From Pelagicoccus enzymogenes (GTDB lineage Bacteria; Verrucomicrobiota; Verrucomicrobiia; Opitutales; Opitutaceae), in assembly GCF_014803405.1 (NCBI RefSeq), contig NZ_JACYFG010000004.1, forward strand, positions 62,001-126,000: a stretch of DNA of 64,000 nt, written 5' to 3'. This document shows, in pieces, positions 6,720 through 30,194 of the stretch. How positions within the stretch are numbered: the stretch's first letter is position 1; the number at the start of each line of letters is the position of its first letter. The position numbers were made by a program, and so were the translations under genes. Below the pieces are notes generated by a model. It saw only the letters and a program-made list of their open reading frames with translations. It was not told the origin of the DNA and did not search any database.

Positions 6720-9700
6720 ATGAAAAAACAAAACCTAAGATCATGCACGATCATGGCGTTTGCGAGCACCTTGCTCACTCTGCCAATGGTCGGTCAGGAC
6801 GCAGACGGCGAGGAAGAAGAAGTCTTCGAACTCTCGCCGTTTGAAGTCACGGCCAATGATAGAGAAGGTTATCAAGCGGTGGATACGCTGGCTGGTAATC
6901 GTCTGAACACCAAACTGCGCGATGTCGGTAACGCCATATCCGTTGTCACGACGCAATTCCTCGAAGACACTGGAGCGACCGATAACAAATCCCTGCTGCA
7001 ATACACCACGGGAACCGAAGTCGGAGGCACGCAAGGTACCTTCGCTGGTACAGGCGATGGAGCATTGCTCGACGAATCGTCCAACTTCATCAACCCGAAC
7101 CAAAACACGCGCGTGCGCGGCCTCACCGCCGCCGACAATACGCGAGACTTCTTCACTTCCGACATTCCTTGGGATGGATACAATGTCGAACGTGTGGAAC
7201 TGCAGCGCGGGCCTAACTCCATCCTGTTCGGACAGGGAAGCCCAGCCGGCCTCGTAAACGTCGGCTTGAAAAGCGCTGCCTACGAGGACGAAGGAGAAGT
7301 CGAAGTACGGTTCGATCAGCACAACAGCATTCGGCTGGCCTTCGACATCAACAAAGTCCTTATAGAGGACGAGCTGGCGGTGCGATTTTCCGTCCTGAAC
7401 AATGACGAAAAATATCAACAAAAACCCGCATACAGCCTAGACAAACGTATCTACGCGGCCTTGCGCTGGGATCCTGCCTTCCTCAACGGCGAGGGCGTCA
7501 GGACCACCTTCAAAGCGAACTTTGAAGACGGGAAGGTTGAAAGCAACAACCCTAGAACCCTGCCCCCTATCGACCGCATCACCCCTTGGTTCGATACCGG
7601 CACCTATAATGGTTCCTACATTTCCAACGGAAACATCATCGGTCCCGACGGAGAGCTGATAGCTGTCAGCAAAGGCGACACTCGGGTTTACCAAGCTCTC
7701 AATAGGCAAACGTTTAATGCCCACCAGTTGCAGCAGGACAACGTCCAGTTTCCGAACCACGGCCAAGGCCGCCCGGGCGTTAATGGCGGTCCGTATTCTG
7801 GTGCCTTCAATCCCGACTACAATCCTCGCCTCGGCAGCTTCGCTGATGCTTTTGGCGGTCCCATCAACTACTTTGCGGTAGACGGCGGATCACCTCAAAT
7901 CTGGCAACAGGAAATCCAAGGATCTCGCGGTATTGGGCCAGATGGTAACATCGATGGAGGAATCGGCGGCTTCGACTTCAACCGTTCGATGGGAATCGCA
8001 ACCGAGTCGGACTTCGCCAAAAACGCAGGCCTGCCCTTCGGCGAGTTTGGCGTCTACAAGAACAACAGCATTACCGATCCTTCCATCTTTGACTTCTACA
8101 ACAACCTGATCGACGGTCCAAACAAGGAGGAGTGGCAAAACTTCAACTCCTTGACCATGAGCTTCTCCCAGACCTACTTGAGCGACATGGTTGGTTTCGA
8201 CCTGTCGTACAACAAGCAGGACTACGACAACGGTCAGCTGTCACTCCTCACCGGAAGTCAGCAGGCTCTCTACATCGATATGATGGGAGTGTTCCCCGAC
8301 GGCAACACAGACGGCTGGGATCCCGGTGAAATACCTTTCGACAACGGCACGCCAAATCCGAACGTTGGACGTCCATTCGTCTCTGATAAAGGCCAGTTCG
8401 GAAACAACTCCTACGAGAGCTTGCGCGAGAGCATCCGCGTCACTCCTTTCGTCAAGTACGACTTCGACAAAGGGGACGGCAACTGGTTCACCAACATACT
8501 CGGTAGCGGGACAATCACTGGCCTTTACAGCGAAGACTCGCTCGACCGTGAAAACCGGAACTGGCAACAGTACGCGATCGAAGACCAAGGGTATATCGAC
8601 TTCATGAATTTCGCCAATGTCAACAGCTTCAGCAGTGGCGATCTCGCTCCCAGCACCGTGGTCTACTTAGGTGGTTCGCTAAAGGACGCTTCCAGCGCCG
8701 TCGGGGCAAACATTCCAGGCATCACCCAGAAAGTTAACCTGCCACGGAATTCGATAACGAGAGTTTTCGACTCAACTTGGGGCAATTATCCAGGTGTCGA
8801 TCCAGCAGCGGAGTGGATCAACAATGCGTATCTGCCACCCGAACTGGAGTATCCAGATTATGACCCTTCCGATCCAGACGCAGAGACCCTGTGGCCAGAT
8901 CGTCGCCTAAGCACCCAAGCGGAGAACCCGCTGAACTACGTGGGCTGGCGCGACTATCCGTACACCTTGACTGCGTCAGAAGACTCGGCAGCGAACCGCG
9001 AAAGACTGACCACTCGGGCTGCCCTCGAGAGCAGTGAAGTGGAATCCCAAGCGCTGATCTGGCAGGGGCACCTCATCAACGATTCCATCGTCGGAACCTA
9101 CGGATGGCGCAAGGACACGGTGACCTCTCGATCTTTCAGCCAGGACACCAATGATCATCTCGACGGCGGCGGATTCGGATACTTGGACTTTGACCCTTCC
9201 TACTACACGCTCGAAGGCGCCAGAGAGAACCAACTCGAGGTGCAATCTCACAGCTACAGCATCGTTACGCACCTAGACCAGCTGCCTTTCGTCAGCGACC
9301 TCGTGGACAACCTGCCATTCAGCGTGAGCTTGTTCTACAACAACTCGTCGAACTTCCAGCCTGAGTCGGCTCGCGTCGATGCCTACGGCGAATCCATCTC
9401 CGCCCCTGCCGGCGAAACTTGGGACAAGGGCATACTCGTGCAAAGCAAAGATGGCCGCTACTCCTTCAAGCTCAACAAGTTCACGACCAACGTTACCAAC
9501 GGTACGAGCACAGCTCTCAGCAATATCGGATTCGTAGGGCAATCCCAGGACTGGGGCGGCAACTGGGCCAACCAGTTTGAATACGACATGTCCATCGACA
9601 ACCAGTCACACGTTATCAGCCACATCGCCAAAAACCGACCCGCCGGTTCCCCTATTCCGCCTAACTTCTCGGAGGACCTTCTCCTTCCGAACGTCGACAT

Positions 9701-10634
9701 TTGGAACGATGGACAAGGGAATGACATCAACGGTGACCCCGTTGACGGCGGAAGAGGTTCACTGTACAACTACGGCCTCGCTCCTGGAGAGACAGCCGCG
9801 GATGCCGCAGCCCGCGAAGCCAATGCGATCGCCGCATGGCGTTCTTGGCAGGCTTCGATCGACCCACGTTTCTACGAAGCGTGGAAAATCGATCTGAACA
9901 GCCCGTTTAGAACCACGGATGCGACACGCATCTCATCCACAACTCCGCAAAACCTAGCGGTCACCGAGGACAGCACCTCGCAGGGCTACGAAATGGAGTT
10001 CACGATGCGTCCCACCGAAAACTGGAACATCATGGTCAATGCCGCCAAAACCACGGCAGTTCGCAATAATATCGGTGGCGCTGCACTGAACGAGTTCATC
10101 GCTGGTTACGAGAACGCCCTCAACAATACTGCGGCAGGCGACATCCGCGTCTGGTGGGGTGGTGCCGGTAACGAAACGACCCTATTCCAGTGGAATCGAG
10201 AAATCGGTTCCGAGTGGACTTCGCGCAAGCTTCAGGAAGGCACAAACGTCCCGGAACTTCGCGAATGGCGCGCCAACTTGATCACCAACTACGACTTCAC
10301 CGATGGTAAATTCGCCGGTCTAAGCGTAGGTGGTGGCCTTCGCTACCAAGATTCGGTAATCATTGGATATACTCCCGTAATCGATTCGGATGGAAAACTC
10401 GGCTACGATCTAGCGAACCCCTACATGGGACCTTCCGAGACGAATCTGGACCTCTGGGTCGGATACGGCAGGGAGTTAAATGACAATCTCGATTGGCGAA
10501 TACAGCTAAACGTTAGAAACGCCTTTGAGGGGGATGGCCTGATACCGATAACGACCCAACCGGATGGCACGCCGGCGGGCTATCGTATAGCGCCGTCGGA
10601 AACCTGGTCGATTAGGAATACATTCTCGTTCTGA
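6720..10634 (+). CDS. TonB-dependent outer membrane receptor
   Basis: A 1304-residue outer-membrane receptor. An N-terminal signal (MKKQNLRSCTIMAFASTLLTLPMVGQ) is followed by an acidic stretch and the TonB-box region VFELSPFEVTAND. The plug (about 60-230) has DVGNAISVVTTQFLEDTGA, the RVRGLTAADNTRDFF strand and the VERVELQRGPNSILFGQGSPAGLVN hallmark. The remainder is a long beta-barrel rich in Tyr, Asn, Asp and Gly, ending SETWSIRNTFSF with a terminal Phe as barrel proteins do. This subtype is expanded in Opitutae and takes up large substrates using TonB energy; the ligand is unknown. No SusD partner is nearby. FG-GAP surface proteins follow it. Confidence 0.95.
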   Translation: MKKQNLRSCTIMAFASTLLTLPMVGQDADGEEEEVFELSPFEVTANDREGYQAVDTLAGNRLNTKLRDVGNAISVVTTQFLEDTGATDNKSLLQYTTGTEVGGTQGTFAGTGDGALLDESSNFINPNQNTRVRGLTAADNTRDFFTSDIPWDGYNVERVELQRGPNSILFGQGSPAGLVNVGLKSAAYEDEGEVEVRFDQHNSIRLAFDINKVLIEDELAVRFSVLNNDEKYQQKPAYSLDKRIYAALRWDPAFLNGEGVRTTFKANFEDGKVESNNPRTLPPIDRITPWFDTGTYNGSYISNGNIIGPDGELIAVSKGDTRVYQALNRQTFNAHQLQQDNVQFPNHGQGRPGVNGGPYSGAFNPDYNPRLGSFADAFGGPINYFAVDGGSPQIWQQEIQGSRGIGPDGNIDGGIGGFDFNRSMGIATESDFAKNAGLPFGEFGVYKNNSITDPSIFDFYNNLIDGPNKEEWQNFNSLTMSFSQTYLSDMVGFDLSYNKQDYDNGQLSLLTGSQQALYIDMMGVFPDGNTDGWDPGEIPFDNGTPNPNVGRPFVSDKGQFGNNSYESLRESIRVTPFVKYDFDKGDGNWFTNILGSGTITGLYSEDSLDRENRNWQQYAIEDQGYIDFMNFANVNSFSSGDLAPSTVVYLGGSLKDASSAVGANIPGITQKVNLPRNSITRVFDSTWGNYPGVDPAAEWINNAYLPPELEYPDYDPSDPDAETLWPDRRLSTQAENPLNYVGWRDYPYTLTASEDSAANRERLTTRAALESSEVESQALIWQGHLINDSIVGTYGWRKDTVTSRSFSQDTNDHLDGGGFGYLDFDPSYYTLEGARENQLEVQSHSYSIVTHLDQLPFVSDLVDNLPFSVSLFYNNSSNFQPESARVDAYGESISAPAGETWDKGILVQSKDGRYSFKLNKFTTNVTNGTSTALSNIGFVGQSQDWGGNWANQFEYDMSIDNQSHVISHIAKNRPAGSPIPPNFSEDLLLPNVDIWNDGQGNDINGDPVDGGRGSLYNYGLAPGETAADAAAREANAIAAWRSWQASIDPRFYEAWKIDLNSPFRTTDATRISSTTPQNLAVTEDSTSQGYEMEFTMRPTENWNIMVNAAKTTAVRNNIGGAALNEFIAGYENALNNTAAGDIRVWWGGAGNETTLFQWNREIGSEWTSRKLQEGTNVPELREWRANLITNYDFTDGKFAGLSVGGGLRYQDSVIIGYTPVIDSDGKLGYDLANPYMGPSETNLDLWVGYGRELNDNLDWRIQLNVRNAFEGDGLIPITTQPDGTPAGYRIAPSETWSIRNTFSF

Positions 10635-10691
10635 CCAATTGATATTAATTGGTCGTCTTTGCGCGCCCCCGGATTTTCCGGGGGCGTTTTT
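10633..10691 (+). terminator. Double hairpin terminator after the TonB receptor
   Basis: A perfect inverted repeat GACCAATT-N6-AATTGGTC (10633-10654) begins inside the stop codon. It is followed by a 10-bp GC-rich stem CGCCCCCGGA/TCCGGGGGCG (10664-10686) with a 3-base loop and five T residues. The second hairpin is a textbook Rho-independent terminator and separates the receptor from the FG-GAP genes. Confidence 0.9.
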
Positions 10692-10831
10692 CTTGCCTGA
10701 ACGAACGGCCCAATCATAATGCAAGATCCCAGCTGTTCTATTTTTTGATCCTTGTTTTGCCCCACGAACAAAGCTTGATTCGCTCTAGGCTAACCGGCAG
10801 CTTCTCGTATTCACTTCTCGATTACTTAGAT

Positions 10832-13489
10832 ATGCGCGTACTAGCGATCACAACAGTAACCACCCTATACATCGCTGGCGCTAGCTACCTCAACTCCACC
10901 CCACAGTCCATTCCTCTCGCGCCGCCCAGCGCTAAAAGCAGCACAACCCTTTTCACCCGCCTCAGCCCAGAAGAAACAGGTATTCGCGCCAACAACGAGT
11001 ACGCTGACCCTCGCATGTGGGGCGAACGCTACCAAGAATTCGCGCTCGGAGCAATCGGTACCGGCATCACCGTCGGAGACTACGATAACGACGGAAAGCC
11101 CGACCTCTTCATCGTGAACAAGACCGGTCGCTCCAAGCTATTTCGCAACCTCGGCAACTGGAAATTCGAAGACACCACCGAAAAAGCCGGCCTCGCCCCC
11201 AAAGCCGAAAACGGACTCCTTAGCTGGTTTGGCTCGGTTGAGGATGAAAGCTCCGTCGAAATCTGGAAACAAGGCGCCGCATTCGCCGATATCGACAACG
11301 ACGGAGATTTAGACCTGTACTTATGCCGTTCCAATGCCCCCAATCAACTCTTCATCAACCAAGGCGACGGCACCTTTAAAGAAGCCGAGAATGCCAATGG
11401 ACTCGCTCTCAACAGTGCTAGCGGCATGGCTTGCTTTGCCGACTTCGACAGAGATGGCTGGCTCGATGTCTACGTGCAGACCAATCTCCTAGACTCAACC
11501 ACAAGCCCTGAAGGCAATCGAGACCGTTTGTATCGCAACATCGGATACGGTAAATTCACAGACATCACCGACGCTGCCGGAATATCTGGGCTGACCTTAG
11601 GCCACTCCGCCACTTGGTGGGACTACAACGAAGATAATTGGCCCGACCTCTACATCGCGAACGATTTCGCCACGCCCGACACCTTGTATCGCAACAATGG
11701 CGACGGCACATTCACAAACGTACTAGATCAAGTCGTCCCCCACCAACCCTTCTCCTCAATGGGCGCCGACCTCGGGGATATCGACAATGACGGGCACATT
11801 GACTTCTTCGTCGCCGACATGGCCCCCACCACCCATGAGATGGACCACCGTGGCATGGCTGTTACCCGCTACTCCATGCGCGAAGAAAACATTACACCTG
11901 GCACCGCTCCCCAGTACATGTACAACGCTCTGTATTTGAATAATGGAACAGGACGCATGCAAGAGGGAGCCTGGCTCTACGGCATAGCCCGCACCGACTG
12001 GACCTGGTCAACTCGCTTCGTCGACTTAGACAACGATGGTTGGCTCGATCTTCATGTCACCAACGGCATGTCCCGCGAATACCAAAACGACGACCTACGC
12101 CAAAGAATCTACCGCACTGTTCATCCCAAAGCACGCCTCGCAGTCATGAAATCCAGCCCAGTCATGAACGAGGCTAACCTCGCCTACCGCAACCAAGAAG
12201 GCCAAGGCTTCAAACGCGTCGAGAAAGACTGGGGCCTTGGAGAAGTCGGCGTCAGTTTCGGCACCGCCTTCGCCGATTTCGACAACGATGGCGATCTCGA
12301 TCTCGTATACAGCAACCTCGACGCCCCTCCCACGATCCTCCGCAACGACAGCCAAACAGGAAATCGCGTCATTTTCGATCTCCGAGGCTCCGCTTCCAAT
12401 CGCTACGGCGTCGGCGCCACCATCGAGATTCAAACAAAATCCGGAAAGCAACTACGCCAGCTCGTCCTAGCCCGCGGCTACCTTTCTAGCAGCGAACCCG
12501 CCCTCCATTTCGGCCTTGGCGAAGATACCACAATACTGAGCGCCACCATAAACTGGCCAAGCGGAACAACCCAAATTCTAGAGGACCTTCCCGTTAACCA
12601 GCGGTACCTCATCCAGGAATCCTCGAGCTCCGAATCGTCCAGCAACGATTTGGTCAAGAACAAGAGAACAGCACCGATTTTTGCAAAGGAAGCAGCTCCA
12701 GCACAATCCCCGTCGCCAAAAAACCAGCCCAAACCGGATCTACCCTTTCTCGAATCCACGCTCTGGAATTGCGCTGTTAAAGCCGATTTCAACGGCGATG
12801 GTATCCCCGACTACGCCATCGGTAACCAAGGTTTAAATACACACTACCAAGCCACCCCCGAAAACTCCATCGTCTTCTTCAAAGGTAACTTCGGGGGACG
12901 TAGCCAAAACCAACAAGTCGAAGCCTACTACCAAGACGGTCGCCTACTCCCCTTCGCCTCGCGAAAGGAACTCATCGCAGCGATCCCACCCCTCCAACGA
13001 CGAATCCCCTCGACCAATAAGTACGCCGCTTCCACCATCGAAGAAATTCTCCCACCTGCAGCCCTCGCCCAGGCAATCCGCACCGAAATAACAGAACTCC
13101 GCAGTGGCGTCCTGATCAGCCAAGCAGACGGCTCCCAGCGCTTCATCCCCTTCCCCTTCATAGCCCAAATCGCTCCTATCCAAGACTTCGGAGTAGCCGA
13201 TATCGATGGCGATGGTCATCTCGACCTCCTAGCCGCCCAAAACGACTACCAAGTCCCCGCTCATATTTCACGCTACGACGGAGGACTGGGCCAACTTCTC
13301 CTAGGAAATGGTGATGGCACCTTCCGTGCAATAGATCCTCAGTCAAGTGGCATCATCATAGACGGTCACGCCCTGTCCATCCATATCGAAGACCTGAACC
13401 AAGACGGAAAAACCGACTTCATCGTACAGCGAGAAGGCCTAGAACCACTCGTCTTTCGCAACCAATCCGAAGGCACCTCCTCCAACTAG
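10832..13489 (+). CDS. FG-GAP/VCBS repeat protein with UnbV/ASPIC domain, short form
   Basis: The ATG at 10832 gives 885 residues with signal peptide MRVLAITTVTTLYIAGASYL; an upstream frame from 10649 passes through the receptor terminator and is rejected. The protein carries about ten calcium-binding loops of DxDxDGxxD type (DYDNDGKPDLF, DIDNDGDLDLY, DFDRDGWLDVY, DLDNDGWLDLH, DIDGDGHLDLL), indicating an integrin-like beta-propeller. A UnbV/ASPIC domain lies near residues 540-625 (GLGEDTTILSATINWPSG). The C-terminal part (about 650-880) has GNQGLNTHYQAT and IAQIAPIQDFG. It is probably exported and surface-bound; such proteins are suspected in adhesion or glycan binding. It is followed after 2 bp by a paralogue. 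Confidence 0.88.
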   Translation: MRVLAITTVTTLYIAGASYLNSTPQSIPLAPPSAKSSTTLFTRLSPEETGIRANNEYADPRMWGERYQEFALGAIGTGITVGDYDNDGKPDLFIVNKTGRSKLFRNLGNWKFEDTTEKAGLAPKAENGLLSWFGSVEDESSVEIWKQGAAFADIDNDGDLDLYLCRSNAPNQLFINQGDGTFKEAENANGLALNSASGMACFADFDRDGWLDVYVQTNLLDSTTSPEGNRDRLYRNIGYGKFTDITDAAGISGLTLGHSATWWDYNEDNWPDLYIANDFATPDTLYRNNGDGTFTNVLDQVVPHQPFSSMGADLGDIDNDGHIDFFVADMAPTTHEMDHRGMAVTRYSMREENITPGTAPQYMYNALYLNNGTGRMQEGAWLYGIARTDWTWSTRFVDLDNDGWLDLHVTNGMSREYQNDDLRQRIYRTVHPKARLAVMKSSPVMNEANLAYRNQEGQGFKRVEKDWGLGEVGVSFGTAFADFDNDGDLDLVYSNLDAPPTILRNDSQTGNRVIFDLRGSASNRYGVGATIEIQTKSGKQLRQLVLARGYLSSSEPALHFGLGEDTTILSATINWPSGTTQILEDLPVNQRYLIQESSSSESSSNDLVKNKRTAPIFAKEAAPAQSPSPKNQPKPDLPFLESTLWNCAVKADFNGDGIPDYAIGNQGLNTHYQATPENSIVFFKGNFGGRSQNQQVEAYYQDGRLLPFASRKELIAAIPPLQRRIPSTNKYAASTIEEILPPAALAQAIRTEITELRSGVLISQADGSQRFIPFPFIAQIAPIQDFGVADIDGDGHLDLLAAQNDYQVPAHISRYDGGLGQLLLGNGDGTFRAIDPQSSGIIIDGHALSIHIEDLNQDGKTDFIVQREGLEPLVFRNQSEGTSSN

Positions 13490-13491
13490 CC

Positions 13492-16185
13492 ATGCGCTTT
13501 TATTATAAAGGAAGCTTCGCTTTGCTCGCCCTAGGCCTAGCTACGACGACGCCCAACCTTGTCGGCAGATCCCAAGTCGATTCAGCACCCCTTGTTCCCT
13601 ATTCCTCCCCCAACCCCACCAGCTCTCAGACCCTATTCTCCGAAATCCCCTCCACCCATTCCGGAATCGATCTCGTCAACAGCTACAACGACCCCCGCAT
13701 GTGGGGAGAACGCTACCAGGAAATGGTTTTTGGAACCATTGGCACCGGAGTCGCCGTAGCCGACTACGACAAAGATGGACTACCCGATCTATTTCTAGCG
13801 GCTAAGACTGGAGGCTCACGACTGTATCGAAACCTTGGTGACTTTAAATTCGAAGACCTGACCGAGTCTGCCGGACTGAGTCTTCAAGACGACAGTTGGT
13901 CAGGTAGACTGAGAGGCCTCTTTGGCAGCGGCTCGGACCAAGACCTGCCCTGGGATCAAGGCACAGCTTTCGTTGATGTGGACAACGACGGATGGCTCGA
14001 TCTCTACGTCACCTCTTTCAATGCGCCCAACCGCCTTTACATTAACCAAGGCGATGGCACCTTCCACGAAGAAGCAGAGCAAAGAGGGCTTGCCATTCAA
14101 GACTCAAGCGGCAGTGCCGCCTTCTGCGACTTCGATCGAGACGGATGGCTCGACGTCTACCTGCAAACCAACATGCTAGACGTCATCTCACAGCCCGACG
14201 GGAGACCTGACCGGCTCTTCCGCAACAAGGGCGACGGAACCTTCGAGGAAGTCACCCAATCCGCTGGCATCTCTGGCTCCACCTCCGGCCACTCCGTCGC
14301 TTGGTGGGACTACAACGAAGACGGCTGGCCAGACATCTACGTCTCCAACGACTTTTCCGTTCCCGATCGCCTGTATCAAAACAATGGCGACGGAACCTTT
14401 ACCGATGTTCTCGAATCGGTCCTCCCTCTCACCCCATACTATTCTATGGGTGCCGACATCGGAGACATCAACAATGACGGCCTGATTGACCTCTTCGTCG
14501 GCGACATGGCCCCAACATCGCATGAAACCGACCACCGTGGCATGGCCATCTCCCGAGCCCGTGAACTCGCAAACCGCCCCCCCGAAGCAGCGCCCCAACG
14601 CATGCGCAACGCACTCTACCTAAACACTCGCTCCAGCCGCATGCTCGAAGCCGCTTGGCTGTTCGGCGTCGCACGCAGCGATTGGACTTGGTCAGTACGG
14701 TTCGAAGACTTCGACAATGATGGCTGGCTCGATCTCCACGTCACAAACGGAATGATACGAGAGTACCACAACGCCGATATCCTTAAAGGCGTCATGGGCG
14801 CCGTCAGCCGCCAAGCCCAGCGTGCTGTCATGAAACGCAGTCCCGTCATGGCCGAGAGCAACCTCGCCTTCCGCAATAAACAAGGGCAAGGCTTCGAACG
14901 CGTCGAGCAAGAATGGGGACTCGACCACCTTGGCGTCAGCTTCGGCTCCGCCACTGGAGATTTCGACGGCGACGGCGACCTCGACCTCATCTACGCAAAC
15001 TACGACGCCCCCTTCACCCTATACCGCAACGACAGCCGAGACAACCGCGTCGTATTCGCCCTCCAAGGCAAGCAATCCAACCGCTACGCCATCGGAGCCT
15101 CCATCGAAATACAAACCGTATCTGGTAAACAGATACGTAAACACCTCAATGCCCGCGGCTACCTTTCCACTAGCGAACCCATCTTCCACTTCGGCCTTGG
15201 GTCAGAGGAAACCATCCAAACCGCCACCATCCGCTGGCCCAGCGGGAATGTGCAAACCCTAACCAATTTAAAGGCGAATCGCAAATACACCGTCCCGGAA
15301 GACAACTCGTCGCAGAACGGTACGCTCGCCACCATCCCGGATCCAGCGCCACAACTCTTTAGGAAAGCAGATTCCACATCACTGGCCTCTAACCTGCAGC
15401 CCCCAGTCCAGACAAAAGACTCCCTAGCCATCGCACCGCCCCTCGTTCCCCAAGGAATACAGTTCTTCCCAGACTTCATCTCAGTCCAAGCCGACCTCAA
15501 CAACGACGGGACCCCCGACTACGTCATCGGTAACCTCGGTTTGAATACACGCTACCAAGCCAGCCCCGAGGCCCCCTTCGTTATTCTGGAAGGCCGCTTC
15601 GCCAATCCCCGAGAGACGCAACGCATCGAAGCCTACGTCGAAAACGGACGACTCCTCCCCTTCCGCTCGAGAAAGGACCTCATCGAGCTCATCCCGCCGC
15701 TCGAACGAAAATTTCCCAGTGCCAACGCTTTCGCCGCAGCCACGCTCGAAGAAATCCTCGGCCCAAGCGCAATCTCCAAAGCCTCCCGCCTTGAAATCAC
15801 CGAACTGCGCAGTGGGGCGCTTATCTCAAGCCCCGAAGGTGAACTCACCTTCTTCCCCTTCACCGGACTCGCCCAAATCGCCCCCATCACCCACGTAGCC
15901 ATCGCCGACTTCAACGGCGACGGACATCTCGACATTGCCGCCGCCCAAAACGAACACGACGTGGATCCCGTCATTGGCTACCACGACGGAGGTCTCGGTG
16001 TCATTCTGCTCGGTGACGGAACGGGCCACTTCAACAGCCTCTCCCCTTCCGAGAGCGGCCTCGTTCTTCCCGGTACCAACTGGCGTCTAAACGCTCAAGA
16101 CGTCGACAAAGATGGCGACATCGACCTGATCGCCACCCCGTCCGAAGGAACAAGCCAAATCTACCTCAACCGCACAAACGACTGA
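13492..16185 (+). CDS. FG-GAP/VCBS repeat protein with UnbV/ASPIC domain, paralogue
   Basis: 897 residues, starting 2 bp after the previous stop, so clearly in one operon. Signal peptide MRFYYKGSFALLALGLATTTP. It is collinear with the preceding protein: the same MWGERYQE block, DYDKDGLPDLF, DVDNDGWLDLY, DYNEDGWPDIY and DFDGDGDLDLIY loops, then a UnbV/ASPIC domain ending TATIRWPSGNVQ, then the GNLGLNTRYQAS tail. The pair is a tandem duplication that has diverged. Calcium-stabilised propeller and surface location are inferred from the family. Function unknown. Confidence 0.88.
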   Translation: MRFYYKGSFALLALGLATTTPNLVGRSQVDSAPLVPYSSPNPTSSQTLFSEIPSTHSGIDLVNSYNDPRMWGERYQEMVFGTIGTGVAVADYDKDGLPDLFLAAKTGGSRLYRNLGDFKFEDLTESAGLSLQDDSWSGRLRGLFGSGSDQDLPWDQGTAFVDVDNDGWLDLYVTSFNAPNRLYINQGDGTFHEEAEQRGLAIQDSSGSAAFCDFDRDGWLDVYLQTNMLDVISQPDGRPDRLFRNKGDGTFEEVTQSAGISGSTSGHSVAWWDYNEDGWPDIYVSNDFSVPDRLYQNNGDGTFTDVLESVLPLTPYYSMGADIGDINNDGLIDLFVGDMAPTSHETDHRGMAISRARELANRPPEAAPQRMRNALYLNTRSSRMLEAAWLFGVARSDWTWSVRFEDFDNDGWLDLHVTNGMIREYHNADILKGVMGAVSRQAQRAVMKRSPVMAESNLAFRNKQGQGFERVEQEWGLDHLGVSFGSATGDFDGDGDLDLIYANYDAPFTLYRNDSRDNRVVFALQGKQSNRYAIGASIEIQTVSGKQIRKHLNARGYLSTSEPIFHFGLGSEETIQTATIRWPSGNVQTLTNLKANRKYTVPEDNSSQNGTLATIPDPAPQLFRKADSTSLASNLQPPVQTKDSLAIAPPLVPQGIQFFPDFISVQADLNNDGTPDYVIGNLGLNTRYQASPEAPFVILEGRFANPRETQRIEAYVENGRLLPFRSRKDLIELIPPLERKFPSANAFAAATLEEILGPSAISKASRLEITELRSGALISSPEGELTFFPFTGLAQIAPITHVAIADFNGDGHLDIAAAQNEHDVDPVIGYHDGGLGVILLGDGTGHFNSLSPSESGLVLPGTNWRLNAQDVDKDGDIDLIATPSEGTSQIYLNRTND

Positions 16186-16274
16186 TCCCCATCAACCATT
16201 GTCGCTTTCACTGCGCTCTTGCACCTCTCGTGCGTCCGGCAGTTAATTTCCTCCACCGACAAGACCCATAACTC

Positions 16275-18722
16275 GTGACTCAAGCCCCAAAGACACAAAC
16301 AACATTCCTGAGCTCCAAAGGCTGGCTACTCGCCTTAGCGGCGTCCTCGCTACTGCTGCTTTTCGCTCACTCCTCCCGCATCAAGCAGATAGACCACGTT
16401 TCAAATCTTGCCGGAGGAGACGAAATTGCAATCGACGCGTCTTCACCCACTGGATACGAAAACGGCTTCCGTAAACTCGTCGTTCCCGAAAAAAACACGA
16501 ACAGCATTCAATGGATCATGCAGGTCCAGCAGCTCTTCGAAGAAGACACGCTACTACTTCGTCACGTCGACTACGACAATGCCCCAGACGGACGAAGCGT
16601 TCGAACCTCCTCGCTTTACCGGTGGTATCTCGGGAGCATAGCGTTCCTGAACAGCCTCCTCACCGGGAATCCGACAGGCGTATCGGTCGAAAAAGCTGCA
16701 CTTTGGGCCGATCCCATCCTACAAGTAGCGACTCTTCTTTTGCTCGCTTGGTTCATCAAGCGCCATTTCGGTACATTGCCGGCGAGCTTTTTTGCAGCCG
16801 GCTTTGTAAGCCTCTTCCCTTTGAGTACCGCCTTCGCCCCAGGTCAGCCCGGCGAATCCTCCGTTCTCATCGCTTGCCATCTCGGCGCCATAGCCACCCT
16901 CCTGGTCGCCGTCCCAACCCCCTTACCCCCAAACGCCCCCACATCGCTTTCTAAGCGACGGCGCCTCTTCACCGCAAGCGGCCTGCTTGCCGGCCTCGGG
17001 ATGTGGATAGGCATTGCGGGGACCTTGCCCCTCTTAATCGGAATAGTCCTGTCCGGCATCTTGCTCGCTTTCTTAAACTCCCGCCAAGCAGAATCAGATC
17101 CGCTACCATGGAGAGCCTGGGCACTTGCAGGAGCTTCCACCACCCTCGTGGCATGGCTCATAGATCGAGCTCCCGCTATCGCGGACGAAGCGTCCTGGCA
17201 GTCCGACTTTATCCACCCGCTCTACTCTGCAGCATGGTTAGGCTCCGGAGAGCTACTACGTTTTCTGTCCATGCCAAATAAAGGCTCAACTCGCCGCAAG
17301 GTTACCATAACCGTCCTTTGCTTGCTCCCAATAGCAGGCCTCGCCTACATCAGCAGCGTAAACTCCTCCGTGGAAGGATGGAGCTTGAATCCTGTATCCA
17401 TAAAACTAACGCGTCTACCCATTGGCCCAGACGCAGCAGGTTTCGTTGAGTGGATCAAACAAGACGGAACCGGCCTCATGCTGATTGCCACTTTGCTCCC
17501 GCTTGCCACCCTAATCTCCCTTGCATTCCATCTGTTCACGACGAAACTCGCAAATGCCGAGAACCGGGCGCTGTTAATAATTCTCGGCCCCGTCCTACTC
17601 GCCGCTGTATTCGCATTCTCGCGACTCGGCTGGTGGAATCAAGTGGCCGCTCTCACACTCCTCCTTGCAACAACCGCCCTGACGAGCAAACACGTCAGCC
17701 AAGCCCTCAAGTGGAGCCTAGGCTCGACCATTGGATTCGCCGCCTTGCTCGGACTCTCCCTCTCCTACTCCGGTATCGGGAAAGCATCGGACAACCTAGT
17801 CGAAACCAAGGATTTCGAAAGCCTCATCGAGCGCCACCTCGCGCAATGGCTTGCCAGACGAGGGGCCATGCCTGGAGAAGTCGCTCTCGCTCCGCCCACC
17901 GTGAGCGCTACGCTTTCGTACTATGGAGGCCTTCGCGGTCTCGGTACACCGTATCCAGAAAACGTTGAAGGTTTTTCCACCGCAGTCCGGCTTTCCGCCG
18001 CCTCGACCGCAGACGAAGCGCACGCGCTTTCAGAAGGACGCGAGGTCAGCTTCATCGTCCACCCCTCTTGGGACACCTTCCTTGAAGAGTACGCTCGTCT
18101 CGGCACCGAGCATCCCGAAAACTCCTTCATAGCGCTGCTGAACCGCTGGCTCGCCCCACGCTGGCTCTATCCCGTAGCCTTCCAGCTTCCAGTTGTGCCA
18201 GGCTTCGAAAACGAATGGGTTACCATCTACCGTGTGGGCGAAGTACAGGACAACTCCAGCGCTATCGCCAGTCTCTTTGAGTACTTTTTGGATACTGGTC
18301 GCCGCCAACTCGCCGTCATGGCCCAAGAAGCGCTCGCCAACAATTTTCCCGATGAACTCGTTACCCACATAGCCACAGCACAACTCGCTATAGCTCGCGG
18401 CGACCCTCAAGGCTTAAAACTCGCCGCTGACAAAATCATTGGATCCATCAATGCCGGAACCGACTTCTACCTCCCTTGGAATTTCCGCGTGAGCGCCTCT
18501 ATAGTTCTCGCCAACGCTAAGCGTATTCCCGAAACGAAAACGCAGCTAGGGATCTGTCTCGAGGAAATCACTACAGATCGCGTTCGACGCCTTCCAACCG
18601 GCTCCCTAACGAACCTGCTCCTTCTCTCAAAGGCACTCAAGGCCGACTTTCCCGATCCAGAAGTCAAAGCCTATGCCATAAGCCTACTTCCGAAGCAACA
18701 GCAAGCTGAGTTTCAGCAGTAG
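16275..18722 (+). CDS. Multi-pass membrane protein, GT-C glycosyltransferase-like
   Basis: 815 residues, with a GTG start at 16275; no better start exists before the first membrane span. Residues 1-500 hold a row of hydrophobic helices (first span 17-31, then many from about 140). The first large loop has HVDYDNAPDGRS (Asp99, Asp101) followed by aromatic YRWYLGS. This recalls the acidic loop of GT-C and STT3-type oligosaccharyltransferases. The C-terminal 300 residues are soluble, with helical TPR-like pairs (AQLAIARGDPQGLKLAADK). It follows the two FG-GAP genes after 89 bp, so it may glycosylate or assemble those surface proteins. That role is inference. The protein itself is uncharacterised. 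Confidence 0.72.
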   Translation: MTQAPKTQTTFLSSKGWLLALAASSLLLLFAHSSRIKQIDHVSNLAGGDEIAIDASSPTGYENGFRKLVVPEKNTNSIQWIMQVQQLFEEDTLLLRHVDYDNAPDGRSVRTSSLYRWYLGSIAFLNSLLTGNPTGVSVEKAALWADPILQVATLLLLAWFIKRHFGTLPASFFAAGFVSLFPLSTAFAPGQPGESSVLIACHLGAIATLLVAVPTPLPPNAPTSLSKRRRLFTASGLLAGLGMWIGIAGTLPLLIGIVLSGILLAFLNSRQAESDPLPWRAWALAGASTTLVAWLIDRAPAIADEASWQSDFIHPLYSAAWLGSGELLRFLSMPNKGSTRRKVTITVLCLLPIAGLAYISSVNSSVEGWSLNPVSIKLTRLPIGPDAAGFVEWIKQDGTGLMLIATLLPLATLISLAFHLFTTKLANAENRALLIILGPVLLAAVFAFSRLGWWNQVAALTLLLATTALTSKHVSQALKWSLGSTIGFAALLGLSLSYSGIGKASDNLVETKDFESLIERHLAQWLARRGAMPGEVALAPPTVSATLSYYGGLRGLGTPYPENVEGFSTAVRLSAASTADEAHALSEGREVSFIVHPSWDTFLEEYARLGTEHPENSFIALLNRWLAPRWLYPVAFQLPVVPGFENEWVTIYRVGEVQDNSSAIASLFEYFLDTGRRQLAVMAQEALANNFPDELVTHIATAQLAIARGDPQGLKLAADKIIGSINAGTDFYLPWNFRVSASIVLANAKRIPETKTQLGICLEEITTDRVRRLPTGSLTNLLLLSKALKADFPDPEVKAYAISLLPKQQQAEFQQ

Positions 18723-18730
18723 GCTATCCA

Positions 18731-21700
18731 CTACTTCACGATTTCCCAAAGGCCATTTTCAGGGATCTCGCTCAATTCGCTTACTTGCCCATCCGTCCAT
18801 CGTACAGCAACCCTCGCAAGCCTGCGCTCCTTCGAATGAGCCACCCAAAGAAGCGCCGATCCTTGTGACATCCAGCCCCCGCCCGAACCTACTTCTTGAA
18901 TTCGCTCGTATCCATCTTCGTAGACAAACATTAGTTGCGCACCCACTGCGTTTGGGTTTGTTGCGGAACCCGTCAGATGAATAGCCAGCCAATTCGCCGC
19001 GTTACTCTTATTTTCAAGATAGACGCTTTCGCCACGATGCCGCGTCGAAAAAACTCCCGGCTTGCCATCTCCCGCAGCATCCAAAACCACAGCCGCTCGC
19101 CCGTTCCCCTGTATCGACACTCCTGAGCGACTCGGCTCTAAGACTTCAAAACGTCCGTCGCCTTTACCGGCTAGGAACAGACCCGCTCCCCCATGGAAGC
19201 TAGGCGTCGCTACGTCCGTATTTTGGCTGGCAAACACATCCAAATAACCATCCCCATCGAAGTCCTCGGCCAGCAATCCCAAAATCGGCCCGATCTGGGC
19301 CCTCGGCGGAAAAGGGGAAAATTCATAGCGCCCACCTTCTTGGCTAAGAAACACGCCCGAAAGAAAACTGTCAGCTTCGAAAACTTCAGCTGCATCCAAA
19401 GCACGAACTCCGAAGACTTCTTCCAAAGTGGCTTTCGCATAGTCATCACTCCGCGGAAAGCGTCGGAGGGCATGTCCGAGCCGACTGCCTATATCTCCAC
19501 GAGCCCTCAGCGGATACAGCGTCCCATCTTCGTACACCGCTTCCGCGATCACTCTCTGGTTGCTAGCGCCGAAGGGTCCGTAGTACAAGCTCGCCGGAGC
19601 TTCCCGAGAAGCTTCATAGGTCGTATTCAATCCTAGGTTACCGACTGCGAAGTCAAGTCGGCCATCTCCATTGAAATCGCCGCTCGCCAAGCCATTCCAC
19701 CAGCCGCGAAGGCCACTATCGAAACCAGCAGCCTCCGTCCTGTCTTCAAAGACACCGCCGCCCGCGTTACGGAAGTAGCGGACCGTATCCCACTCCAAAG
19801 CTGCGATCAGGTCCGGACGGCCATCCATGTCGATATCGCGAAACAAGGCACTCTTAACCAAACCAATATCATCCAACCCGGCGACCTCGCTTACAACAAA
19901 GCGTCCCCCCTGCCTCAACAACAAGAAACTACGCGGACTAGCCGGATACTCGCCGGGAATCGAACGGGCTCCCAGAAAGAGATCCAAATCGCCATCGCCA
20001 TCTACGTCGCCTAGCGCCGCCGCTCCCACGTTGATAGAGAGACGAGGCAACCAGTTCGTCTTTGAGAATTTTCCTTTGCCATCGTTGGAATAGATCAAAG
20101 GCTCAAAACCCTGCGGCCATAGCTCCGATTTAGCGCTCGCCTTTGTCACCAGCAGATCCTCAGCTCCATCTCCGTTGGCATCGAAAAGCATGACCGGCCC
20201 GTCCTCGACCGCAGAAGCACCCAAACCCGAGACGGCGACCTGCTCGTATCCACCGTCCTTAGACAATAACAATCGAGCAGCGGAACCAGTCGTGGCGCCC
20301 ACATAGACATCCTCCCGTCCATTGCCGTCGACATCCCCCACTGCCAAAGCAGGACCATGTCGATCGGTGCGAAACGGAAGCAGGAACTGCTCTTGGTCGG
20401 ATATCGCAAGTCCCGACTCGTCCACGAACTTCAAGCCATAATCCTCGGCCCGAGGAACAAAAAGCGGCTCTCCCTGAACCTTTACTGGTCCATCGCGCGC
20501 TGCCCCCTCTTCCTCGATTAGATAAGCAAAGTTCGCATCAAGCTTCTCAAAGACCTGGGCTCCCCCCAATGGCCATTGGACCGTAAGTCGTTCAATCTCA
20601 GATTCCGAGCCAAGACCGAAATGAGTCACCAATTCGCTGCCTGAGGAATAGCCACGGGCCGAAGCTAAATCCCTCACCTGTACCCCCGACCTCGTTTCGA
20701 CCTTTACAAGCGCACCCAATGCATCCCGGTTCGACTCGCCCCCGCGCAGGCGAACCTGTATGCGATTCCCCCCCGCAACGTCATTCCGGTAAACGCTGAG
20801 ACCTCCTCCGTGGTTTAGGTACACAATATCCATGTCCCCATCCCTATCAAAATCGCCCATCGCCGCTCCGAAACTCACCCCGACGTCCTCAAGTCCCCAA
20901 TTCTTGGTTACATCTTCGAAACGCCCTCCAGCTAAACTGCGAAAGGCTAAGTTCGATTCCTCCAAACGTGGCGAGCGATTCATAACGGCGATCCGCTGCG
21001 GCATGGAACGCGCTTGCATCATACGGGCCAACAGATCGCTGTTGTTCGCCTCCCGGACCATGCCATTGGTCACGTGAAGATCCATCCAACCGTCATTGTC
21101 GAAATCCTCGAAACGAACCGACCATGTCCAATCCGTCGCGTCCAGTTCCGCCCAACAAGCCGCTTCCCAAAAGGAATCCGTACCCATGTTGAGCAAGAGT
21201 GAGTTCCGCGTATACTGAGGAGCCACATGAATGCCGCCTCCCATTCTAAGCAAATCCTCCTTTGACGCTGCTGGCTTGCGACGCATCTCTGTCTCACGCG
21301 AGGTCGCCGCCATGTCGCCGAGGAAGATGTCGATATGCCCATTGTTGTCCACATCAGCCGTGTCCAGACCCATCGTCGAGTACGAGGTATGTGGGGCCAC
21401 TTGGTCGACAACGTTGGTAAAGCTACCGTCTCCGTTATTCCGATACAAATAGTCGGGACCTGCATAGTCGTTGGCGATGTAGAAATCAGGCCAAAGGTCC
21501 TCATTGTAGTCGAACCAAATGACAGCGTGGCCGAAGGTATCTCCAGAGACTCCCGCCTCCTTTGTAGTCTCCACAAATAGCCCGCCCCCTGTGTTGCGGT
21601 AGAGGCGGTCCAAGCGACCATTCGACTCGGTCCCATCCATTTGGTTTGTGAGCACGAGCACATCCAGCCATCCATCTCGATCGTAATCGGCAAAGGCCCC

Positions 21701-22309
21701 TAAAACGCTGCCATCAGACAATCCCAGACCGCGTTTTTCGCCCTCCTCCTCAAAGGTACCGTCTCCTTGATTTACATAGAGTAGATTCGGGGCTCCATTT
21801 CGACAGACGTAGAGGTCCTTGTCTCCATCATTGTCGATATCCGCGAACACCGCCCCTTGACGCCAAACGACCTCGTCGTCCGAAGAAACCGCGTTCCTCA
21901 ACCAACTCATCACCCCAGACTCCTCAGCTAGCCCAGCCTCTTCAGTTACATCCTCGAACCTCCAGTCGCCCAGATTACGGAAAAGGCGGCCTGGCTTCGT
22001 CTTCGTCGACACGTAAAGGTCGAGCTTCCCGTCACCATCGTAGTCGCCCGCCGCGATTCCCGAACCCATGCTGCCGCCCATGTACTCCCGATAGCGAGTT
22101 CCCCACATCTCTGGATCATCATAGGCGTTGTCGACCACAAGCCCCGTATCGTTCGGGTCCAACTTGGTAAAAAGGGTCGAGGCCCTAGATTCGGAGGGCA
22201 CGGAGAATTCCGTTTTTTCGATAAGCTTGGAAAACGCCTTTTGTCCAGATACCGCGCTAGACGATAGTAAGGCAATTGTTACGAGAGCGATCGAATCAGT
22301 GCGTGTCAT
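18731..22309 (-). CDS. FG-GAP/VCBS repeat protein with two UnbV/ASPIC domains, long form
   Basis: I chose the ATG at 22309 because it gives a clean signal peptide (MTRTDSIALVTIALLSSSAVSG) and 1192 residues; an ATG at 22336 or 22390 is possible. About 13 DxDxDGxxD calcium loops are seen (DYDGDGKLDLY, DIDNDGDKDLY, DVDGDGDLDLF, DFDGDGYLDVF). One UnbV/ASPIC domain lies mid-protein (FGLGSESEIERLTVQWPLGG) and a second at the C-terminus (LARVAVRWTDGQ). The region with LPRLSINVGAAALGDVDGDG and LRGWWNGLASGDFNGDG is typical of the 1100-residue CRTAC1-type family and is absent from the two shorter paralogues. It converges on the GT-C-like gene with an 8 bp gap. Confidence 0.88.
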   Translation of the reverse strand: MTRTDSIALVTIALLSSSAVSGQKAFSKLIEKTEFSVPSESRASTLFTKLDPNDTGLVVDNAYDDPEMWGTRYREYMGGSMGSGIAAGDYDGDGKLDLYVSTKTKPGRLFRNLGDWRFEDVTEEAGLAEESGVMSWLRNAVSSDDEVVWRQGAVFADIDNDGDKDLYVCRNGAPNLLYVNQGDGTFEEEGEKRGLGLSDGSVLGAFADYDRDGWLDVLVLTNQMDGTESNGRLDRLYRNTGGGLFVETTKEAGVSGDTFGHAVIWFDYNEDLWPDFYIANDYAGPDYLYRNNGDGSFTNVVDQVAPHTSYSTMGLDTADVDNNGHIDIFLGDMAATSRETEMRRKPAASKEDLLRMGGGIHVAPQYTRNSLLLNMGTDSFWEAACWAELDATDWTWSVRFEDFDNDGWMDLHVTNGMVREANNSDLLARMMQARSMPQRIAVMNRSPRLEESNLAFRSLAGGRFEDVTKNWGLEDVGVSFGAAMGDFDRDGDMDIVYLNHGGGLSVYRNDVAGGNRIQVRLRGGESNRDALGALVKVETRSGVQVRDLASARGYSSGSELVTHFGLGSESEIERLTVQWPLGGAQVFEKLDANFAYLIEEEGAARDGPVKVQGEPLFVPRAEDYGLKFVDESGLAISDQEQFLLPFRTDRHGPALAVGDVDGNGREDVYVGATTGSAARLLLSKDGGYEQVAVSGLGASAVEDGPVMLFDANGDGAEDLLVTKASAKSELWPQGFEPLIYSNDGKGKFSKTNWLPRLSINVGAAALGDVDGDGDLDLFLGARSIPGEYPASPRSFLLLRQGGRFVVSEVAGLDDIGLVKSALFRDIDMDGRPDLIAALEWDTVRYFRNAGGGVFEDRTEAAGFDSGLRGWWNGLASGDFNGDGRLDFAVGNLGLNTTYEASREAPASLYYGPFGASNQRVIAEAVYEDGTLYPLRARGDIGSRLGHALRRFPRSDDYAKATLEEVFGVRALDAAEVFEADSFLSGVFLSQEGGRYEFSPFPPRAQIGPILGLLAEDFDGDGYLDVFASQNTDVATPSFHGGAGLFLAGKGDGRFEVLEPSRSGVSIQGNGRAAVVLDAAGDGKPGVFSTRHRGESVYLENKSNAANWLAIHLTGSATNPNAVGAQLMFVYEDGYERIQEVGSGGGWMSQGSALLWVAHSKERRLARVAVRWTDGQVSELSEIPENGLWEIVK

Positions 22310-23091
22310 GCTTAAGCAAGACAGATTGAAGGACATCGAAAATCGCTTCGCAACTGAATTGTCCCCCTCGCCAAACTCAAACCGTTCCAAGTCTTGACCG
22401 AGCAGCGAACTATCCCATCAAAAACTCGCGAATTCAGTCATCTCGCACTCCTCCCAGAGGGGCACCGGCCAAATCCTCCCATTGGAGTCCTAAATTCGAC
22501 CACGCTCTCGCCTTTGGGGCCCATGCGAACCGACATGATTAAAGTCAACGTGCGAATACAGGTTCTACAAGATGCCCTTTTGCATCAGTGGGCCAACAAG
22601 CGATTCATCGCGACCCGCACCCGCTATCGAATGAAAGGCAAACAATAGCCAGCCATTCGGAATATTGAAAAACCGCCCCTCGAAAACCGGCATTGAACGA
22701 AAAGGAAAACACGAGGCTGGAGGACCTGCTTCAACAGTAGACAAATAAAGCCCCATTTGGTTTAGTAAATAAAATCTATAACCTTGGATATAGCCAACAG
22801 CCCCATTCGGCATATTCTATTTATAGAGATGCCTGCAGCGTTTACTTCTAAGCGTTCCAAGGATGAACTAATGTTCACGATGAGGAAATTCCGACTCGCA
22901 CGTACCCATTCCCAAGCAGCGAACATCATTGTGCCTTCCGCATCGTTCTCATCTGCAACACTCCAACAAAAACGGAACTCAAGATTCAACATCTCGTTTC
23001 CATTTCGAAACGCCCCCAAAACCTGATACCGAATCACGTATATTACTTTTGGATACACAAAAGCTAATGCTTTGTCAAAAAGATCGATATT
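22310..23091. other. Intergenic region between divergent genes
   Basis: About 780 bp between the long FG-GAP gene (minus) and the CE6-type esterase (plus). It becomes AT-rich towards 23000. Small open frames are present, but none has a recognisable start, composition or domain. It probably holds both promoters. Confidence 0.45.
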
Positions 23092-23925
23092 ATGAAGTAC
23101 CTACTCTCGATTTTTAGCCTTCTGACCTGCGCCACTATCGCTGAAATGCATGCGCAGGACGAAGACTTTTACATATTCCTCTGCTTCGGCCAATCGAATA
23201 TGGAGGGATTCCCAGGCATTCCGGAATCGGAAAAAGGTCCTGTCGACCCACGTTTCCAGGTCCTCGCTGCCGTAGACTTCCCAGAGCTGGGACGGGCAAA
23301 AGGCAGCTGGTACACCGCGACCCCTCCGCTAAGTCGCCCCTCCGCAGGCCTCAGCCCAGCCGACTACTTTGGCCGGGCTCTCGTCGAGGCCCTACCTGAA
23401 AACAAAAAAGTCGGCGTCATCAACGTCGCCGTCGGCGGCACCAAGATCGAACTCTTCGACGAAGCCGCGCGCGCGGCCTACCTCGCCGATGCTCCCGACT
23501 GGCTACACAACATTTCCAGCGCCTACGACAAGGATCCCTACGCTCGCCTAGTCGAGATGGGCAAGCTCGCTCAAAGGGACGGCGTCATAAAGGGCATACT
23601 CATGCATCAGGGCGAATCCAACACCGGCGATAAGGAGTGGCCCCACAAGGTGAAGACCGTATACCTGAACCTCCTCAACGATCTTGGCCTCAAGCCCGAA
23701 GACGTTCCTCTGATCGCAGGCGAGGTCGTTGCAGCCGACCAATACGGAAAGTGCGCCAGCATGAACGAGATCATCCGCACCCTTCCCGAAACCATTCCCA
23801 CCGCTCACATCGTTTCTTCCGCTGGATGCCCGGACACGGTAGACGACCTCCACTTCTCTCCCGAAGGCTACAAAATGCTGGGCACCCGTTACGCCGACAC
23901 GATTTTACCACTATTGGTACAGTAA
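23092..23925 (+). CDS. Secreted SGNH/CE6-type carbohydrate acetylesterase
   Basis: 277 residues with signal peptide MKYLLSIFSLLTCATIAEMHA. The GQSNMEG block carries the catalytic Ser35. INVAVGGTKIE and GILMHQGESNT are the oxyanion and conserved Gln/Glu blocks. TVDDLHFSPEGY supplies the Asp-His pair (His254). This is the sialate-O-acetylesterase-like/CE6 pattern; CE6 enzymes remove acetyl groups from xylan. The acetyl-xylan role is inferred from the neighbouring GH43 and esterase genes. It is the first gene of a four-gene plus-strand operon, with 20 bp to the next gene. Confidence 0.88.
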   Translation: MKYLLSIFSLLTCATIAEMHAQDEDFYIFLCFGQSNMEGFPGIPESEKGPVDPRFQVLAAVDFPELGRAKGSWYTATPPLSRPSAGLSPADYFGRALVEALPENKKVGVINVAVGGTKIELFDEAARAAYLADAPDWLHNISSAYDKDPYARLVEMGKLAQRDGVIKGILMHQGESNTGDKEWPHKVKTVYLNLLNDLGLKPEDVPLIAGEVVAADQYGKCASMNEIIRTLPETIPTAHIVSSAGCPDTVDDLHFSPEGYKMLGTRYADTILPLLVQ

Positions 23926-23945
23926 CCAAATATCCAATACTAATC

Positions 23946-25130: not shown

Positions 25131-25173
25131 CAAAGCCCTTTACCCCTTATTCCCCACCATTCTCTCTCTTTCC

Positions 25174-26196: not shown

Positions 26197-26283
26197 GCAC
26201 ATCTTGAATAGCTGTATCCAAAATTCCTACAGACTGCAACGCGCTGTAATTTACTAAAAATAATTCAACCCTATCGCAAAACA

Positions 26284-27210: not shown

Positions 27211-27255
27211 GTTTTCGAGAGCAGTTTCTGCTCCATCTTCAGTTTCTTTCACGCA

Positions 27256-27287
27256 AAAGCGTCGCTGCCATTCGGAGCGACGCTTTT
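27256..27287 (+). terminator. Rho-independent terminator between convergent genes
   Basis: An 11-bp perfect stem AAAGCGTCGCT (27256-27266) / AGCGACGCTTT (27276-27286) closes a 9-base loop and ends in a T run. It ends the esterase operon. The A-rich left arm means it may also terminate the minus-strand regulator transcript. Confidence 0.85.
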
Positions 27288-27324
27288 TCATTTATTGCTT
27301 GGACGCAATATACTTCAGCGTGCC

Positions 27325-28062: not shown

Positions 28063-28092
28063 GGCGAAAAAGTACAATTTTTAAGCCAGTCG

Positions 28093-28105
28093 ATACAAGC
28101 TGTAT
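28093..28105. promoter_or_regulatory. Candidate operator in divergent promoter region
   Basis: A perfect 5-bp inverted repeat ATACA-AGC-TGTAT lies in the 119 bp between the AraC regulator (minus) and the epimerase gene (plus). Position and symmetry suggest a regulator site. It is short enough to occur by chance. Confidence 0.3.
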
Positions 28106-28181
28106 TTCCTTCGGTGCGCTAGACTACAGTTGTGGGTCGGGCTACGTGCTGACCCCAGCCCTTCAACCCCATTACCCTTTC

Positions 28182-29027: not shown

Positions 29028-29068
29028 CAGATAAGGGCGACCTAGGTTAACCCCAAAAAGTGAATACG

Positions 29069-30187: not shown

Positions 30188-30194
30188 ACCAAAG

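Follow-up and report, generated by a model that had tools for sequence, protein, structure and literature searches.

A window of 64,000 nucleotides from Pelagicoccus enzymogenes (contig NZ_JACYFG010000004.1, positions 62,001 to 126,000 of the forward strand) carries a TonB-dependent receptor gene, three genes for FG-GAP/UnbV proteins (FG1, FG2, and FG3), and a gene for a multi-pass membrane protein. Here, we report that the membrane protein is modeled as a distant homologue with an oligosaccharyltransferase (OST) fold, that it belongs to a clade in which the catalytic residues of that fold are eroded, and that the members of this clade are linked to FG-GAP/UnbV genes in Opitutales.

Gene content and transcription layout

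All five genes lie where the original prediction had placed them (open reading frames [ORFs] and Pfam; Table 1). FG-GAP_3 and UnbV_ASPIC domains were found above curated cut-offs in FG1, FG2, and FG3 (UnbV E values, 9e-23, 7.1e-22, and 4.8e-27), and the short form equals the long form minus its middle repeat region and second UnbV domain. FG1 and FG2 are in tandem, 2 bp apart (13489/13492), and FG3 is convergent with the membrane-protein gene, 8 bp apart (18722/18731). The plug is the only Pfam domain of the receptor, which lacks a CarboxypepD_reg domain and thus is not SusC-type; its top NCBIfam match, TonB-siderophor, is far under the cut-off of that model. The closest named locus, L086 (Pelagicoccus sp. 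SDUM812005), encodes a membrane protein 94% identical to that of the window.

The hairpin between the receptor and FG1 is unchanged in L086. Terminator-like sites in the region overall show no excess (20 versus 20.6 in shuffles), so the case for a terminator rests on the strength, place, and conservation of this hairpin; a promoter scan of the region likewise gave no excess (6 versus 8.1). Because so strong a hairpin, kept in L086, precedes the ATG at 10832, the ORF-called FG1 start is doubtful, and 10832 is the likely true start. The conserved hairpin also argues that the receptor probably ends its own transcript, with FG1, FG2, and the membrane-protein gene forming one unit. A plain receptor-FG-GAP operon in the window was rejected on account of the conserved terminator.

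Table 1. Features of the locus, in window coordinates
Feature	Position	Strand	Remarks
TonB-dependent receptor	6720..10634	+	1304 amino acids (aa); Pfam plug E 2.2e-9
Terminator-like hairpin	10663-10687	+	11 pairs, 9 G-C, then T run; between receptor and FG1
FG1, FG-GAP/UnbV (CRTAC1-like)	10832..13489	+	Short form; ORF call begins 10649
FG2, FG-GAP/UnbV	13492..16185	+	Short form, 897 aa
OST-fold membrane protein (modeled), eroded	16275..18722	+	815 aa
N76 codon	16500..16502	+	Aligns with D70 in canonical L056 (treated as AglB Asp47)
G193-E194-S195 codons	16851..16859	+	Canonical Asp-His-His, taken as AglB Asp161/His163
D386 codon	17430..17432	+	Aligns with the Glu of canonical loop 5 (treated as Glu360 in AglB TIXE)
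FG3, FG-GAP/UnbV	18731..22390	-	Long form, two UnbV domains; likely start near 22336
Carbohydrate cluster	23092..62525		SASA esterase, Esterase, several GH43, arabinofuranosidase-type, GH97, GH95, GH5-type, MFS, ThuA

Fold of the membrane protein

Against Pfam, the window membrane protein gave nothing at an E value of 0.001 and, at a limit of 10, only an unrelated PI3Ka match (E 0.28). It matched the archaeal STT3 model TIGR04154 (E 8.5e-4), as did 8/17 canonical family members (defined below) and 5/24 members of alignment A1, two of which are canonical (best E 3.5e-9; all far under the curated cut-off), and Pfam STT3 was matched by 1/17 canonical members (E 5.1e-6). A profile search of the PDB with the whole canonical alignment gave, among the 60 matches listed, TPR-type matches to the C-terminal part.

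An AlphaFold model was built from alignment A5 (30 rows, window and related-locus sequences only; A1 and A5 each mix in a few canonical rows) and reached a predicted local distance difference test score (pLDDT) of 85.8 and a predicted template modeling score of 0.86. A Foldseek search with it (E 2.2e-11) gave AglB, DPY19, and STT3 as best matches. VIA-align matched the model to AglB (3wak) with a Z score of 22.5 and a root mean square deviation of 4.2 Å over 586 aligned residues, followed by STT3 (Z, 19.3), DPY19 (18.4), ArnT (15.4), and PglB (14.2). Thus, on the model, Foldseek, and VIA-align, the window protein has the OST GT-C fold, with 13 transmembrane helices (read from the model), a periplasmic domain, and C-terminal TPR-like helices predicted; residues after about 658 match TPR proteins in structure comparison. 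The guess that the protein was GT-C-like was therefore right and can be sharpened to an OST fold. The acidic DYD loop cited with that guess is present (D99-Y100-D101) but out of register with the OST metal motifs.

Canonical and eroded forms

The metal ligands of AglB are Asp47 and, from an Asp-His-His motif, Asp161 and His163, with Glu360 (TIXE motif) taking part via water (PMC8342417, PMC7226087). Homologues of the membrane protein were found in 25/57 relatives searched (G010 with seven, the P. enzymogenes genome with four), and 85 homologues were reduced to 77 by dropping rows with identical last 300 residues. Those with at least 6/7 sites picked from alignment A3 were called canonical, and the call was then checked on four AglB-equivalent residues, the equivalence being assigned by motifs and loop position. 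The 77 divide into 22 canonical and 55 eroded homologues. All four residues are present in 21/22 canonical copies and three in the remaining one; in the eroded clade, two are present in 18 copies, one in 19, and none in 18.

The window protein has N, G, S, and D at these four positions. The first DXD aspartate (AglB Asp47 position) is replaced by N76 and is variable throughout the eroded clade (E, P, D, N, A, T, R, or G; D in 8/55 versus 22/22 canonical). The second DXD motif reads G-E-S in the window protein, with the D kept in 31/55 eroded copies and the second H in 14/55. At the loop-5 glutamate of the TIXE/SVSE motif, which reads exactly T-I-A-E in canonical L077, the window protein has D386, and E occurs in 2/55 eroded versus 22/22 canonical copies. 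In the region of the WWDXG motif, which binds the sequon Ser/Thr, the canonical form has YWEN, taken as a counterpart by position only, and the window protein has P-E-N. Of 50 near-invariant canonical positions, 17 (chiefly structural W, P, and G) persist in 80% or more of the eroded copies, and the catalytic positions are among the 33 lost. New conservation has appeared at W393, W525, E581, and W599-D600, present in 52 to 53 of 54 eroded copies (the 55 minus L112) and in much less of the canonical form. The reading as an ordinary active oligosaccharyltransferase was rejected on the loss of catalytic residues.

Canonical and eroded homologues fall on two sides of one branch (Shimodaira-Hasegawa-like approximate likelihood ratio test, 100), with the same outcome after removal of the motif regions; the trees are unrooted, and L112, which has an overlong frame, is counted in the 77 but was left out of them. 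Its match with archaeal residues points to the canonical form as the older of the two. The eroded form seems to need no canonical paralogue of its family, since the matches in G010 (one contig; L036, L038, L042, L043, L046, and L067) comprise seven eroded copies and lack a canonical one.

DPY19- and ArnT-type enzymes carry out metal-independent transfer of a lipid-phosphate-linked sugar with a loop-1 acid as base. The eroded form could be a neofunctionalized, active GT-C enzyme of this kind, with the FG-GAP protein or an envelope glycan as acceptor. Residue D101, in external loop 1, is D or E in 55/55 eroded copies, which makes other transferase chemistry possible; G106 is kept in 53/55 and R107 in 51/55, DPY19 and ArnT are among the structure matches, and the gene is under purifying selection (see below). 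However, the canonical form shows the same invariance at D101, which lies off the AglB Asp47-aligned position, and all 55/55 eroded copies have lost W105 of the canonical NAPxGREVHW stretch. We regard an active enzyme as the main rival explanation, though an unlikely one.

Genomic linkage

An FG-GAP/UnbV gene lies within 250 bp of 50/55 eroded copies and of 0/22 canonical copies. Where at least 7.2 kb is visible on both sides, the counts are 37/37 eroded versus 0/12 canonical loci, which are not independent because the 37 include close relatives (for example, L031/L032/L033, L053/L054, and L065/L068) and several loci from one genome. The five eroded copies with no FG-GAP neighbor detected (L034, L035, L092, L096, and L101) lie 225 to 1489 bases from a contig end, and FG-GAP fragments below the 150-bit threshold are present at L092 and L101. 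The residue-defined split predicts the FG-GAP neighborhood beyond chance. The gene set recurs in Opitutales, and the unlinking in relatives that the original prediction had named as its own refutation was not seen for the eroded membrane protein and FG-GAP (37/37 linked). In the 47 pairs compared, the two genes are divergent in 28, in tandem with FG-GAP upstream of the membrane-protein gene in 12, convergent in 4, and in reverse tandem in 3; with orientation so variable, the linkage is not that of one frozen operon.

Of these loci, 31/37 eroded and 6/12 canonical ones have a TonB receptor within 7.2 kb (12 to 18% expected from plug density in three genomes). The inclusion of the receptor in the unit, as first proposed, holds insofar as it is nearby in most eroded loci, but it is also near half of the canonical loci and is separated from FG1 in the window by the conserved terminator.

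Dependence is one-way, with many FG-GAP genes having no membrane-protein partner. In a wider check, 32/51 strong membrane-protein matches in 23 further genomes were within 350 bp of an FG3-type match, below the 37/37 above; this is a lower bound, since scoring was limited to four FG-GAP candidates in each genome and the 51 include some fragments. The 23 genomes were chosen for having an FG3-type match, and the 51 matches were taken without a split into canonical and eroded; left out were G436, G474, G493, G494, and G511 (no FG3-type match) and some fragments in G473, G429, G319, G460, and G492. By genome, a membrane-protein match of either form was present in 36/40 genomes with an FG3-type match (none in G019, G330, G424, and G434), and 42/78 genomes with a membrane-protein match had no FG3-type match at the threshold used. 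In a phylum search (38/383 genomes, two candidates scored in each), matches outside the order covered part of the profile only. Counts of neighboring-gene families gave no separation of canonical from eroded loci in a hand-chosen scan (78/135 and 71/113 listed; the listing is without L032, L054, and L068), with TPR proteins at the top of both (7/78 and 8/71 scanned).

On the L091 contig, two eroded copies and a canonical one are interspersed with three FG-GAP genes, with an FG-GAP gene 314 bp from the canonical copy (3355-5919); this contig would be useful for studying the canonical-eroded transition. At canonical loci L059 (P. enzymogenes), L070, and L074, all in the genus of the window, all four catalytic residues are intact, a TonB receptor lies 93 to 573 bp away, and a different FG-GAP protein of about 1440 aa is encoded about 4 kb off; these loci are possibly an active relative of the module.

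Joint divergence and selection

Distances among membrane proteins correlate with those among their FG-GAP partners (r, 0.795; 47 pairs; 0/5000 permutations). When partners were shuffled within genomes (14 genomes, 39 pairs), the mean was 0.43 and the maximum 0.71, and 0/5000 shuffles reached the observed value; in G010 alone (six pairs), the correlation was borderline (93/2000 permutations). At the same 27 receptor loci, r was 0.90 for the pair, 0.62 for membrane protein and receptor, and 0.50 for FG-GAP and receptor. The distance correlation is one of shared descent of the pair.

The ratio of nonsynonymous to synonymous substitution rates (dN/dS) of the membrane-protein gene is 0.29 versus L086 and 0.15 versus L087, and the frame is intact; the gene is under purifying selection in the window lineage. 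Fragmented or stop-containing copies occur at L102 and L105 and among matches in G429 and G485, which suggests cassette turnover. Such copies are what would be expected if the two genes were passengers, duplicated together while the membrane protein decays. We consider this very improbable, given the intact frame and low dN/dS in the window lineage and a linkage that survives deep divergence and four gene orientations.

FG-GAP proteins, SusD, and glycosylation

The FG2 model (pLDDT, 83.8) has murine CRTAC1 as its best PDB match (9etn; E 3.7e-28). The original prediction was that FG-GAP/UnbV proteins may stand in for SusD in ligand capture beside the TonB receptor and that the membrane protein could modify them. 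The SusD family PF07980 was found in 0/57 genomes, including that of P. enzymogenes, with a positive Bacteroides control (other SusD models were not run genome-wide); this absence, the receptors near most eroded loci, and the polysaccharide gene cluster downstream all favor a replacement.

Three lines of evidence weaken it. First, among 112 plasmid records matching FG3, the three best were examined, and the FG-GAP homologue adjoins SusC and SusD on a Hymenobacter plasmid (L116; annotation and Pfam) and on a Gemmatirosa plasmid (Pfam), so that SusD coexists with FG-GAP at two loci, in Bacteroidota and Gemmatimonadota, the two on which this statement rests; on a Granulicella plasmid, the homologue is near a TonB receptor. 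Unlike the window receptor, those of L116 and L117 have a CarboxypepD_reg domain, and no OST-fold match was found in the Hymenobacter, Gemmatirosa, and Granulicella stretches examined. Second, a lipobox pattern was found in 2/47 Opitutales FG-GAP copies, so that surface display is at best putative; the Hymenobacter and Gemmatirosa copies have lipobox-like starts (by eye). We speculate that the OST-fold partner might compensate for the absent lipid anchor. Third, FG-GAP tracks the receptor less closely than it does the membrane protein at the 27 loci, and the receptor of the window is followed by a conserved terminator.

As to modification, N-X-S/T sequons are depleted in the FG-GAP partners (223 versus 278 ± 15 in shuffles) and at expectation in receptors (353 versus 354) and membrane proteins (88 versus 91). 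N-glycosylation of FG-GAP at N-X-S/T was rejected on this depletion, to which FG-GAP repeat composition may contribute. With the OST residues eroded as well, modification of the FG-GAP proteins by the membrane protein loses ground, and we judge the replacement model as a whole improbable.

Adjacent genes

Judged by enzyme types, the downstream carbohydrate cluster (Table 1) resembles one for arabinoxylan use. It includes a large ThuA, DUF7133, HEAT, and cytochrome c fusion (30254-33763) and a 1506-aa protein (58005-62525) with GH43, GH5-type, CBM35/CBM6, ricin-type, and LamG-type domains; further ThuA proteins are at 40658-41596 and 46968-48026. Two ORFs, at 54657-55583 (308 aa) and 1855-3165 (436 aa), had no Pfam match at an E value of 0.001; the latter is overlapped by an antisense ORF of like length and may be no gene.

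Interpretation

We favor, at about even confidence, the reading that the unit is a two-protein pair, in which a CRTAC1-like FG-GAP/UnbV protein is served by an eroded OST-fold holder in the inner membrane that has lost the metal-binding and amide-activating residues and given up glycan transfer to asparagine. The newly conserved residues cluster in the periplasmic domain and TPR-like tail of the membrane protein; these parts would keep hold of the FG-GAP partner while it is folded, exported, or positioned. The FG-GAP protein, in turn, would cooperate with the TonB receptor nearby to capture polysaccharide. W525, E581, and W599-D600, in the soluble domain (53/54 eroded copies), are candidate FG-GAP contacts. 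A broader version, which we offer tentatively, is that a non-enzymatic OST fold became dedicated to CRTAC1-like FG-GAP proteins in an inner-membrane-to-surface capture module that radiated as Opitutales cassettes (up to seven eroded copies per genome).

Several observations weigh against this pair. The joint divergence can be explained by cassette duplication without contact, and the 37 linked loci are not independent. The P. enzymogenes genome has 23 UnbV matches but three eroded copies, and G004 has strong FG3 homologues with a canonical copy the only one found. Residue loss is uneven, two of the four residues remaining in 18/55 eroded copies, and their equivalence to AglB was assigned by motif and loop position; the acid at D101 is kept throughout the clade, and DPY19 has the same fold yet is a C-mannosyltransferase. 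In PDB profile searches, the shortened canonical alignment gave weak matches to AglB C-terminal domains (E 0.13 and 0.25) with a tRNA synthetase ahead (0.11), and A1 gave an AglB domain (E 0.027) outranked by an unrelated match (0.02).

Taken singly, neither the OST fold nor the FG-GAP family is new, and the same holds for the receptor context. The window protein resembles STT3, AglB, and PglB in fold (over 586 residues of AglB), in traces of the STT3 sequence model, in its 13 transmembrane helices (model reading), and in its periplasmic C-terminal domain, but in the FG-linked clade erosion has affected residues of both DXD motifs and of the YWEN stretch as well as the loop-5 Glu, and the TPR-like tail and FG-GAP linkage are additional. 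DPY19 is alike in overall fold (Z, 18.4), as an OST-fold relative with another reaction, but the match is to the Caenorhabditis elegans protein at 9% identity. The FG-GAP proteins share FG-GAP_3 and UnbV_ASPIC with the CRTAC1/ASPIC-UnbV family, and the FG2 model fits murine CRTAC1 best, but the long form extends into a second half that contains another UnbV domain, and some are paired with the OST-fold protein. The Hymenobacter L116 locus, a SusC/SusD polysaccharide utilization locus with a VCBS/FG-GAP neighbor, has in common with the window a TonB receptor, carbohydrate enzymes, and a homologous FG-GAP protein; in the window, however, no SusD was found, the receptor is without CarboxypepD_reg, and the OST-fold protein is extra, and Opitutales FG-GAP proteins mostly have no lipobox pattern. 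In the open-licence literature, a scope outside which most subscription journals fall, we found neither a pairing of FG-GAP/UnbV with an eroded oligosaccharyltransferase nor a role for FG-GAP/UnbV proteins beside TonB receptors, where they occur in several phyla.

The co-diverging OST-fold membrane partner is a first handle on some of these FG-GAP/UnbV proteins. With a residue-losing and a residue-keeping OST clade side by side in the same bacteria, both the part played by FG-GAP proteins and how far the OST fold can be stretched become directly testable. From sequence comparison and structure modeling, the pairing suggests that an enzyme fold may have been turned to a new job in polysaccharide-degrading bacteria.

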